Shown: positions 1,835 through 21,857 of the stretch, piece after piece
Layout of the letters: the number at the start of each line of letters is the position of its first letter
Numbering within the stretch: the stretch's first letter is position 1
Source: a virus
DNA length: 22,940 nucleotides
IMG/VR virus record: IMGVR_UViG_3300044609_000067
Coordinates: 1 to 22,940 of that record
Reading direction: 5' to 3' (one strand)
Notes under the pieces: model-generated
The model's database searches: none
Told to the model about the DNA's origin: nothing
Seen by the model: only the letters and a program-made list of their open reading frames with translations
Made by a program: the position numbers and the translations under genes

Positions 1835-1876
1835 ACGCTGAGGCAGCGACGCAACCCCCCATAGGGGTGCCCCCGA

Positions 1877-2003
1877 ATGCACACGTACACACCTGCCCGC
1901 CACCCGCATGTACGCACGCACACGCGTGTATGCACGTGTCCAGCGCATCTGCATCACACACAGGTACGCAGGACATAGGCGTGCAGGCAGGCGCACACGC
2001 GCG
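1877..2003. repeat. Alternating purine/pyrimidine (Z-DNA-prone) cluster
   Basis: Bases 1905-1939 alternate pyrimidine and purine without a break for 35 nt, mainly CA, CG and TG steps, including the palindrome ACACGCGTGT (1920-1929). Shorter perfect runs flank it at 1877-1892 (16 nt) and 1991-2003 (13 nt). Composition is far more GC-rich than the neighbouring genes. Such tracts can adopt Z-DNA under negative supercoiling; whether this one does is unknown. Confidence 0.6.
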
Positions 2004-2596
2004 AGAGGCAGCAACAACTATGCGGCACCACGCATAACCACATCTGACACATCTGTCGACCCTTACTGAGAACACTATTGAGAACCCAGTGATACCAACC
2101 GATCTCAGCTAAACACTGTACCATAAGCAACCCTGATAACCACTGCAACAACAGGGATCAGGCTGTACTATGTGCCACTTGCTGTCACTGTCCACCGATC
2201 AGCGGTGCTAGGCTAAACCCATACTCTTCTTTGAATGTTGAGAGTTACTCGACTCTCCCTGTTAAGGGTGAGGAGAGTCTCGAAACTTCAACCAGAAGAG
2301 ATGAGAGACACCACCAACTGAATACGGCGAACCAGCCCTTGGCACTGTGCCACCTGGTGAACCGGCCACCACTCCTTGACAAGCCGCTCCAGCCATGCTA
2401 TGGTGAGAGCATCGAACCTCGAAAACCAAAGAGCCAAGGCTGAGTAGGACCACGGGTCACTGCCGCCACAACTGCCGAGCGGGTTCCGGTTGTGGGTTAG
2501 GGTACACTCCTTAGGTGCCAGCCGTGCCACGCCGAGAAGGGTGAGCACACCAACCGCAGACCCACATGCGGTATACAAGTTTGCTCATGGGTTACA

Positions 2597-2636
2597 TGCG
2601 TCTGTTATAGCGGTGAAAGCGATACGCTAAGACGCA
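2597..2636 (+). other. 3'-terminal stem-loop of the non-coding region
   Basis: TGCGTCT (2597-2603) pairs perfectly with AGACGCA (2630-2636), and TAGCG (2608-2612) with CGCTA (2625-2629), leaving a one-sided GTTA bulge and a 12-nt loop. A T-rich stretch (2648-2656) follows ten or so bases later, just before the next start codon. It could be the 3' end of the candidate RNA or a leader element of the next gene. Confidence 0.55.
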
Positions 2637-2658
2637 CCTATCCACTTGTCTTTTAATT

Positions 2659-10460: not shown

Positions 10461-10639
10461 CTGACCTTTCCCCTGCCGCTCAAGCGGTGTTGAATGCGTA
10501 CTTCACTGAAGCCGATCGTCTTGACCGCGAGGTCAGTGATAACGAGATGCTTGCTGCCGTCCTTCGCGCTGCTGCCCTGTTCTGCAAGCGCGACGCCGTG
10601 ATCCTTCTGGCTATCGCCGACGAGCTAGAGGTTGAATGA
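10457..10639 (+). CDS. Small Ala-rich helical protein (60 aa)
   Basis: The protein is almost wholly helical and Ala/Leu-rich (LSPAAQAVLNAYF, MLAAVLRAAALF, AVILLAIADELEVE). Similar short LSPAAQAVLxA proteins occur, as I recall, in picocyanobacteria and their phages, with no established role. Codons are much richer in GC (gccgtccttcgcgctgctgcc) than in adjacent genes, suggesting recent transfer from a host. It starts in an ATGA overlap and ends in a 4-bp overlap with the exonuclease ORF, so it is embedded in the replication operon. Confidence 0.65.
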   Translation: MTDLSPAAQAVLNAYFTEADRLDREVSDNEMLAAVLRAAALFCKRDAVILLAIADELEVE

Positions 10640-11154
10640 ACCTAGTCTTTGACCTAGAAACAAACGGTCTATACGATGATGCTTCCAAGATCCACTGTAT
10701 TGGCGTCTACGATCTTGACTCTAAGCAGACTCTTGTCTTCAACGATACAGGAAGTGCGGAGCCAATCACAAAAGGCATTCAACTTCTTGAGGATGCCCGT
10801 TGTCTTATTGGTCACAACATTATTGGGTACGACATTCCTGTTATCCGCAAGCTTTTTCCATGGTTCAGTCCCAGTGCTCTTACTGTGGATACTTTGGTGC
10901 TATCTCGCATTTACCACGCTGATATGCTGAAGACAGATCAGAAGAGAACATGGAAGCACATGCCTCTACAGCTCTACGGTCGCCACTCCTTAGAGGCCTA
11001 TGGTCACCGTCTTGGTGAGTACAAAGGCTCTTTCGGTAAAACAGCTGACTGGAAAGAGTGGTCTGAGGAGATGCAATCCTACTGTCTGCAAGATGTCCAC
11101 GTAACCACTAAACTATGGAAGCATTTCCAAAAATACCTGACTTCATCCAATTAG
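10636..11154 (+). CDS. DNA polymerase, 3'-5' exonuclease domain (split gene, part 1)
   Basis: The 172 residues match only the proofreading domain of T7 DNA polymerase. Exo I is FDLETNGL (Asp5 and Glu7), Exo II is GHNIIGYDIP, and Exo III is YCLQDVHVT with the Y-x-x-x-D signature; TVDTLVLSRIYHAD and HSLEAYGHRLGEYKG also align with T7. The frame stops at TAG (11152-11154), whereas the rest of the polymerase continues in the -1 frame from the overlap onward. Slipping back one base at the AAAAA run (11131-11135) would join both into one protein of about 585 residues. Either the gene is truly split, uses programmed -1 frameshifting, or carries a one-base error here. Confidence 0.9.
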   Translation: MNLVFDLETNGLYDDASKIHCIGVYDLDSKQTLVFNDTGSAEPITKGIQLLEDARCLIGHNIIGYDIPVIRKLFPWFSPSALTVDTLVLSRIYHADMLKTDQKRTWKHMPLQLYGRHSLEAYGHRLGEYKGSFGKTADWKEWSEEMQSYCLQDVHVTTKLWKHFQKYLTSSN

Positions 11155-12383
11155 AACTTGATGTCGCAACTATCCTCTCAACCCAAGAATTATATGGATG
11201 GTACTTTGACGAAGTTGCTGCACGGGAACTTGCACAAGCTCTCTATTCCGAGCTTGATGGTCTTAATCGTGTACTACGGGAGCGGTACCCTTACGTTGCA
11301 GGACGCGAATTTACTCCGAAGCGAGTTAACAGCAGTACAGGATATGTAGCTGGTGCGCCCCTAACAAAGCTTAAAGAGTTCAGCCCTACCAGTCGTGATC
11401 ACATCGCCTGGGTAATGCAGAACCTACACGGTTGGAAGCCTGACAAAGAGACAGCAAGTGGCAAGACTGCCATCGATGAAACTGTTCTCAAAGACATAGG
11501 TACAGAGGAAGCATTACAGTTCTTTCGCTGCCTAGAGCTTACCAAACAACTGGGTATGTTGTCTGAGGGTAAGAACGCTTGGCTTAAGCTAGTCAAGGGT
11601 AGCCGCATTCACCACCACTGTTCAGTAGCTACTAACACGCACCGTTGTGCTCACCGTAATCCAAACCTTGCACAGGTACCTAGTGATCTTAACTTTAGAA
11701 AGCTATTCATCGCTAGCCCTGGCTTTTGCATGGTTGGTGCTGATCTCGCAGGGATTGAGTTACGAATGCTTGCCCACTACTTGGCTCGATATGATGGAGG
11801 CAGGTACGGAGACGTTCTTCTCAACGGTGACATTCACCAGGAGAACGCCGACAAGATAGGTATCTCACGCCGACTTGTTAAGACGGTGACATACGCCTTC
11901 CTCTATGGGGCAGGTGATCAAAAAATTGGACTTAGTTATGACCAAAGCCTTCCCCCGAACAAGGCGAAAGAAAAGGGTGCAGAAATCAGAGCTGCTTATG
12001 TTGCTGCCATTGACGGCTTGGGTGATCTTCTTACCGCTGTTCGTTCAGCGGGTGAGCGAGGCTCTATCAAAGCGATAGATGGACGCAAGATTTCTGTAGA
12101 TAGCCCTCACAAGGCACTCAACTACTTGCTCCAGTCAGGAGCTGGTGTTGTTGCTAAACGGTGGATGGTTCACACTCATAATGTAATCCACCAATGTGAA
12201 ATTAATGCACATCAGCTAGCGTTCATTCACGATGAATTGCAGTTTGAATGCCCCCCAGACTATGCTGATACTCTATCGTCAGCTCTAACTATCTCAGCTC
12301 TCACTGCAGGAGAGCACTATAAACTCAGGATACCTATCGAAGCGGAAGCCAAGGTGGGGAACACCTGGGCAGACGTACACTAA
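11115..12383 (+). CDS. DNA polymerase, polymerase domain (split gene, part 2)
   Basis: This holds the family A polymerase of the T7 type: STGYVAGAPLTKL and SSxDHI-like TSRDHIAWVMQ, HRCAHRNPNLAQVP, motif A GADLAGIELRMLAHY (catalytic Asp), motif B RRLVKTVTYAFLYGAG (Arg, Lys and Tyr of the O helix), SPHKALNYLLQSGAG, and motif C FIHDELQFEC (catalytic Asp). All catalytic residues are present. ATG 11115 has no visible ribosome binding site and its first residues (MEAFPKIPDF) are merely the other frame of the exonuclease C-terminus. True homology to T7 begins around FIQLELDVATIL, which supports a joined product. Active in replication together with SSB and primase/helicase. Confidence 0.92.
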   Translation: MEAFPKIPDFIQLELDVATILSTQELYGWYFDEVAARELAQALYSELDGLNRVLRERYPYVAGREFTPKRVNSSTGYVAGAPLTKLKEFSPTSRDHIAWVMQNLHGWKPDKETASGKTAIDETVLKDIGTEEALQFFRCLELTKQLGMLSEGKNAWLKLVKGSRIHHHCSVATNTHRCAHRNPNLAQVPSDLNFRKLFIASPGFCMVGADLAGIELRMLAHYLARYDGGRYGDVLLNGDIHQENADKIGISRRLVKTVTYAFLYGAGDQKIGLSYDQSLPPNKAKEKGAEIRAAYVAAIDGLGDLLTAVRSAGERGSIKAIDGRKISVDSPHKALNYLLQSGAGVVAKRWMVHTHNVIHQCEINAHQLAFIHDELQFECPPDYADTLSSALTISALTAGEHYKLRIPIEAEAKVGNTWADVH

Positions 12384-20774: not shown

Positions 20775-21857
20775 ATGACTGCAACACTCGCAGCTCCACA
20801 GTCTCAAGGCAGCCCTTGGGACTCTTACTTAAGCTGGGTAACCAGTACTAACAACCGTCTTTATATTGGCCACTTCGGGGTTCTCATGATCCCTTGTTTG
20901 TTGGCTGCTACCATTTGTTTTATTCTTGCATTTATTGCAGCGCCTCCTGTTGACATTGATGGGATCCGCGAACCTGTCGCTGGGAGTCTTCTCTATGGAA
21001 ACAACATCATATCGGGAGCCGTCGTACCGAGCAGCAATGCCATCGGACTACACCTATACCCAATTTGGGAAGCTAATTCACTTGATGAATGGCTCTACAA
21101 CGGGGGACCATTTCAACTCACAGTCTTCCACTTCCTCATTGGCATCTATGCTTACATGGGACGAGAGTGGGAACTTAGCTATCGACTAGGGATGAGGCCT
21201 TGGATCTTTGTCGCATACTCTGCCCCGGTGGCGGCTGCTACCGCTGTATTCCTTGTCTATCCCTTTGGTCAAGGGAGCTTCTCTGATGCTATGCCTTTGG
21301 GTATCTCGGGAACGTTCAACTACATGCTCGTCTTCCAAGCTGAACATAACATCCTTATGCACCCCTTCCATATGCTTGGAGTCGCGGGTGTATTCGGTGG
21401 GTCTTTGTTTAGCGCGATGCACGGCAGCTTGGTTACGTCTAGTCTTGTTCGTGAAACGACTGAAGAAGTCTCTCAGAACTACGGCTACAAGTTTGGACAG
21501 GAAGAGGAGACGTATAACATCGTTGCCGCTCATGGTTATTTTGGACGTTTGATCTTCCAATATGCATCTTTCAATAATAGCCGTAGCCTTCATTTCTTCC
21601 TTGCTGCTTGGCCTGTTGTTGGCATCTGGTTTGCTGCTCTGGGCGTTTCGACCATGGCTTTCAATCTTAATGGTTTCAACTTTAACCAAAGCTTGGTCAG
21701 CTCTGAAGGGAAGGTGATTAACACCTGGGCTGACACTCTTAACCGAGCTGGTCTTGGTTTAGAGGTGATGCATGAACGTAATGCTCACAACTTCCCACTT
21801 GATCTGGCCAGTGCAGAGGTAGCACCTGTTGCATTGGTCGCCCCTTCTATTGGTTAA
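20775..21857 (+). CDS. psbA: Photosystem II reaction centre protein D1
   Basis: Phage-encoded D1 replaces the photodamaged host protein so that light energy continues to feed infection. The 360 residues cover full D1 with five membrane spans: [86 protein letters not shown] and the C-terminal [13 protein letters not shown], where CtpA cleaves before the extension [15 protein letters not shown]. His and Glu/Asp ligands of the Mn cluster near the C-terminus ([13 protein letters not shown]) are intact. The residue equivalent to position 130 is Glu (GREWELS), as in the high-light D1:2 form. The protein is one residue longer at the N-terminus than Synechocystis D1. Certain. Confidence 0.99.

Follow-up and report, generated by a model that had tools for sequence, protein, structure and literature searches.

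A folded early leader in T7-like cyanophages and its candidate link to the host boxA signal

What occupies a long stretch without genes between the ThyX gene and the first early gene of a marine T7-like phage? The question is raised by an IMG/VR virus record, analysed here over all of its 22,940 bases (the window), which by gene content comes from a T7-like Synechococcus podovirus: it carries the end of the terminase large subunit gene, ThyX, small early genes, a phage RNA polymerase, SSB, a primase/helicase, a DNA polymerase and psbA. The stretch spans 872 bp (1787–2658) between the ThyX stop at 1786 and the first early gene (2659–2901, + strand), a predicted gene of family phrog_7365 without assigned function. 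S-CBP4 is the nearest isolate over this gap, with weaker matches to S-TIP37, S-SBP1, S-CBP3, S-RIP2 and others, and the order terminase large subunit–ThyX–gap–early gene is also found in relatives. Elsewhere in the window, the DNA polymerase region (10636–12383) consists of two overlapping ORFs of 172 and 422 aa, of which the second was scanned, and represents either a split gene or an assembly frameshift; psbA, an auxiliary gene for the photosystem II D1 protein, lies at 20775–21857.

The gene-free interval and the predicted genome end

The initial annotation described the interval as gene-free, and this is borne out, with only short unsupported ORFs within 1787–2658. A coding reading, suggested by two hypothetical ORFs annotated in S-CBP4, was rejected because indels in relatives are not multiples of three and break the frame. 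Judged by its sequence, the gap is two things: a predicted terminal repeat, followed by a putative folded leader of the first early mRNA that is ~430 nt long.

The predicted direct terminal repeat covers 222 bp (1829–2050) and is present in single copy in the assembly. The genome ends of P-SSP7 have been fixed by sequencing, with a 206-bp repeat that starts with TATACGATGTACACAGGACGCA (PMC3350473). Exact end repeats measure 206 bp in P-SSP7, 150 bp in S-TIP37, 180 bp in S-SBP1 and 237 bp in Syn5. Position 1829 of the window aligns with the genome starts of P-SSP7, S-TIP37 and S-SBP1, and the motif ATCTGTYG, which follows the repeats of S-TIP37, S-SBP1 and Syn5, recurs at 2051; a repeat at 1829–2050 is therefore predicted. 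This is a homology prediction only, made on a 22.9-kb fragment with one copy and with boundaries taken from the four phages with exact repeats. The arms of a proposed helix at 1931–1941/1971–1985 are present as described, but they lie inside this predicted repeat. The inverted repeat that they form (1931–1985) is partly kept in relatives and could act as a signal for packaging or replication. Sequence blocks between the repeat and the leader (2060–2200: TATTGAGAACCCAGTGATACCA; CTGATAACC..TGCA..GGGATC; ACTGTCCACC) recur in related cyanophages, and strings related to them occur in the end regions of P-SSP7 and Syn5.

A promoter ending at 1834 had been proposed as the start of a transcript from the gap. 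The promoter-like TTAACA-16-TATACT exists on the + strand (1807–1834, a 10/12 match), but the predicted terminal repeat starts within it. The −10 hexamer of the match is formed by the first six bases of that repeat, so that linear phage DNA would not carry the complete match at its left end, and it was rejected as the promoter of the leader. Because its hexamers are closer to consensus in some relatives, it is possibly a terminase-cut signal, or a promoter whose two hexamers stay together only in concatemers and at the right end of the genome.

A hairpin leader shared by many cyanophages

The leader runs from an extended −10 element at 2206–2214 up to position 2659, where the first early gene begins. 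A search with the hairpin core detects it in at least 119 stretches of IMG/VR, where it sits downstream of terminase/ThyX and ahead of the early genes. Among 152 hairpin loci, 128 of which hold at least 1.5 kb of upstream sequence, 126 are preceded by the terminase large subunit gene and 125 are followed by a homologue of the phrog_7365 early gene, in both cases on the same strand. The leader is apparently a widespread, undescribed RNA family, and searches of open-access literature returned no description of it or of boxA in cyanophages. It is a mosaic in which middle domains differ between phages as exchangeable modules. No leader match was found in the examined parts of Syn5, P60 and S-CBP2. 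One locus (L099, 3740–4457) carries the leader hairpin twice, ~625 nt apart.

The extended −10 element TGCTAGGCT (2206–2214, + strand) is proposed as early promoter P1, with a predicted start near 2220. Across the family, the pattern TAnnnT is present between positions −43 and −38 relative to the hairpin core in nearly all of 79 distinct upstream sequences, with 75 position hits in that span compared with ~1.3 per position in shuffles; given this fixed distance, transcription would begin at the hairpin. No −35 element is evident for P1. A second promoter candidate, P2 (TTGACA-17-TATGGT with TG before the −10 hexamer; 2376–2404, + strand), is also found in S-CBP4 and close relatives.

The 5′ hairpin (module A; 2220–2303, + strand) is ~85 nt long and has a covarying outer stem, a GA/GA internal loop, a GUUA loop and a tip that is near invariant. 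In an alignment of 55 sequences, two-sided changes occur at all nine pairs of the outer stem, and the covariation score is 0.395 compared with 0.086 for shuffled alignments (0/500) and at most 0.105 when slid, the pair counts here and in all other modules being uncorrected for phylogeny. The covariance model is strand-specific, with 87.7 bits on the + strand and 23.5 bits on the − strand; it finds diverged forms in locus L284 (2.3e-8) and P-SSP2 (3.3e-6) and misses P-SSP7, where a similar hairpin is visible by folding alone. No match to the hairpin family model was obtained in host rRNA loci or in three host-type genomes, a search made without a positive control, and on that basis a host origin of the hairpin was rejected. 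All complementary arms listed in the initial annotation are present as written, and their fates differ. Within the 5′ hairpin, for example, the helix 2251–2258/2272–2279 gives way to a conserved nested register with which it competes and which is stronger (−17.6 vs −12.5 kcal/mol).

boxA and the downstream modules

The boxA of the picocyanobacterial 16S–23S spacer reads GAACCTTGACAACTGCATA in 70 of 81 boxes, and the WH7803 genome contains two copies of this 19-mer, one of which was seen in the ITS at +554. The same element stands behind the phage hairpin: with up to four mismatches it occurs in 90 of 116 distinct 200-mers downstream of the hairpin and exactly in 17, compared with 0 of 2320 mononucleotide shuffles, and a clear boxA is missing within 200 nt in 26 of the 116. 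Of 33 exact copies of GAACCTTGACAACTGCATA found in IMG/VR, 26 follow this hairpin and one (L284) follows a diverged form of it. In two further loci (L271, 1000–1500, and L278), the same exact host boxA is immediately preceded by another kind of leader, which is closed by a long stem, GGTGAACAG..CTGTTCACC. Exact GAACCTTGACAACTGCATA also occurs in GC-rich phages (L270 and L269/L272/L274), with the L270 copy directly behind a short hairpin. A looser pattern, GAACCTTGAMAACTNAATA, matched 119 stretches that are mostly outside hairpin loci and was not used.

In the window itself, the boxA (module B, GAACCTCGAAAAC; 2414–2426, + strand) aligns with the boxA of relatives and is degenerate, with more than four mismatches over 19 nt and two in the 13-nt core, so that boxA function is less certain for this phage than for the family. 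On weak evidence, a partial boxA-like string, CACCAACTGAATAC, lies closer behind the hairpin (2312–2325, + strand; CACCGACAACTGAATAC in relatives). A helix at 2334–2343/2433–2441 that was thought to close a domain is not conserved: its 3′ arm is changed without compensation in L055, L071, L095 and L123, and its 5′ arm is missing in L124 and L132.

The middle domain (module C; 2427–2552, + strand) is of a type that also occurs in L124 and L132, where it follows a different hairpin and boxA and precedes a tRNA-like element. As a whole piece, it folds no better than shuffles. It contains the stem CCACAAC/GTTGTGG (2466–2495, + strand), whose arms change together in relatives, although these changes were not formally counted; the corresponding helix of the initial annotation (2466–2472/2489–2495) is thus plausible, although RNAalifold did not choose it. 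Next comes an H-type pseudoknot (module D; 2553–2592, + strand) with helices 2553–2558/2567–2572 and 2560–2564/2588–2592 and a conserved ACAAGUuUGcUCA linker, for which the covariation score is 0.461 compared with 0.111 shuffled (0/500, 33 sequences). The last module (E; 2597–2636, + strand) is, in the window's type, a hairpin with a GGUGRAAGCGAUAC loop. Its proposed helix 2597–2603/2630–2636 is real and covaries: the inner stem changes from TAGCG/CGCTA to CTGAG/CTCAG, and the outer stem also changes.

In many relatives, the position of this last hairpin is taken by a tRNA-like element, absent from the window, that lacks D and anticodon arms and whose acceptor stem stacks on a T-arm of 5 bp that carries a UUCRANY-type loop (UUCGAGU). 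Its covariation score is 0.336 compared with 0.105 (14 sequences), and the inner two pairs of the acceptor stem form in only a minority of the sequences. ARAGORN reports neither tRNA nor tmRNA in the window and, in most relatives, makes no call at the tRNA-like element; in L132, a tRNA-Met call spans the tRNA-like region. For WH7803, the host of S-SBP1, an attP reading of the element was rejected, as no match to the 3′ end of a host tRNA was found with up to three mismatches. P-SSP7 seems to have another tRNA-like T-arm, placed between the first of its early genes (L266, 1000–1050).

Proposed function, alternatives and known systems

NusB scores above cut-off in three Synechococcus-type genomes (WH7803, WH5701 and SynAce01), and no Rho match above the family cut-off was found in three such genomes, where weak Rho-model matches are probably other ATPases. 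Judged by sequence, the boxA stands next to a hairpin and behind a host-type promoter, whose −10 element lies at a fixed distance from that hairpin. We regard it as reasonably probable from these sequence features that the element is an rrn/nut-like Nus-factor (antitermination) leader of the early transcript; by analogy, the phage probably borrows the host Nus machinery for early transcription. Host RNA polymerase would start at the extended −10 promoter (2206–2214), and probably also at P2 (2376–2404). The nascent RNA would then fold into the hairpin and expose boxA, the signal of the host 16S–23S rRNA spacer. By analogy with antitermination at rrn and lambda nut, boxA would be bound by NusB together with S10 (NusE), and this complex, along with NusA and NusG, would associate with host polymerase during elongation. 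The polymerase would thereby become processive enough to traverse the long leader, which is not translated, and then the early genes as far as that of the phage RNA polymerase. Further folding or regulatory roles may fall to the pseudoknot and to the exchangeable middle domain, and in relatives RNase P and RNase Z could split the leader from the mRNA at the tRNA-like element. If Rho is absent, there is less call for boxA antitermination in its classical sense. RNA folding may be the main process that Nus factors assist at rRNA (PMC5725501), and the gain to the phage could therefore lie in folding or processivity rather than in protection from Rho.

Several other readings account for part of this evidence. 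The hairpin might mainly stabilise the early mRNA, or be an RNase III or RNase E site like those of T7 early mRNA ends, with boxA secondary or vestigial, notably in the lineage of the window. The hairpin's place at the expected 5′ end, its status as the most conserved part of the leader with a near-invariant tip and the degenerate boxA of the window all fit such a role, which has perhaps a modest chance of being correct; arguing against it are the boxA sequences of many lineages, which lie behind variable spacers and are identical to that of host rRNA, and the L271 and L278 leaders, in which another closing stem precedes the same boxA. Somewhat more doubtful is the idea that cleavage frees the leader from the mRNA (at the tRNA-like element in relatives) and that it persists as a stable RNA that mimics rRNA, recruits Nus factors and diverts NusB–S10 from host rRNA transcription, with middle domains swapped like cassettes. 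Base-pair covariation alone fits RNA and DNA hairpins alike, and the element adjoins the terminal repeat, so it could act as DNA near the genome end, as a replication origin, packaging signal or cruciform whose inverted repeats are protein-binding sites. That is plausible for the 1807–2050 part; for the element at large it is improbable given the fixed upstream −10 element, the + strand preference of the hairpin covariance model and the fact that the boxA, the pseudoknot and the tRNA-like T-arm are likewise + strand features.

The initial annotation envisaged a single giant non-coding RNA of ~800 nt, starting at 1841 and resembling GOLLD and ROOL. The + strand of 1841–2645 does fold more stably than its dinucleotide-shuffled versions (−280.2 vs −251.3, z −4.0, 20 shuffles), but the excess is confined to two pieces, 2220–2309 with the 5′ hairpin (z −5.2) and 2590–2645 with the 3′ hairpin (z −2.7); pieces inside 1841–2040, 2041–2180, 2310–2408 and 2427–2545 have ordinary or weak folds (z −0.1 to −2.0). 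Covariation in homologues likewise favours structure only for parts of 2220–2636, with strong comparative support for the 5′ hairpin, the pseudoknot and the 3′ hairpin. The first part of the supposed RNA is homologous to terminal repeats, and the proposed domain-closing helix is not conserved. At the gathering threshold, no Rfam covariance model matched the window, where a relaxed threshold (E ≤ 10) returned spurious miRNA and snoRNA matches only, with no GOLLD, ROOL, OLE or HEARO; these four were equally absent from relatives, in which only a genuine tRNA matched. A giant RNA of this kind is thus very unlikely. A genuine structured phage RNA is present; its length and start had been misjudged, and the structured leader has ~430 nt and separable modules.

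As a Nus-factor leader, the element would resemble several known systems. rRNA operon (rrn) antitermination, which involves NusB/NusE–S10, NusA, NusG and SuhB, likewise has a boxA that follows a hairpin in a leader transcribed by host polymerase, and the same exact 19-nt host spacer boxA is present in many phage relatives; it differs in that the phage leader belongs to an early mRNA, its hairpin is not found in host rrn loci and the hosts have no Rho that passes the cut-off. Lambda nut and HK022 put RNAs are also phage leader RNAs near early promoters in which boxA and/or hairpins modify host polymerase. Here, in contrast, the phage is lytic and T7-like with its own RNA polymerase, the model needs no N-like protein and the hairpin precedes boxA, as in rrn. 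We know of no sequence relationship between the nut or put hairpins and the leader hairpin. The left end of T7, with its terminal repeat, early host promoters and early mRNA leader, shares the gene order and genome-end position, whereas the cyanophage leader is long and modular; to our knowledge, the T7 leader has no such boxA or pseudoknot. GOLLD and ROOL are also structured phage RNAs but differ in size, structure and position, and their covariance models do not match the leader. Other structured RNAs of cyanophage 5′ regions, manA, wcaG and PhotoRC-II, were described from T4-like phages or near psbA (PMC2864571), and no Rfam model matches the present leader.

Among ocean viruses, T7-like cyanophages form a major group, and little is known about how host polymerase is directed to their early genes. 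The leader family is ready for an Rfam entry. A leader with the host boxA would extend the hijacking of Nus factors, known from temperate phages of the lambda type, to marine T7-like phages with a lytic life cycle and, in hosts without detected Rho, it offers a test of the role of boxA where Rho termination is not an issue.
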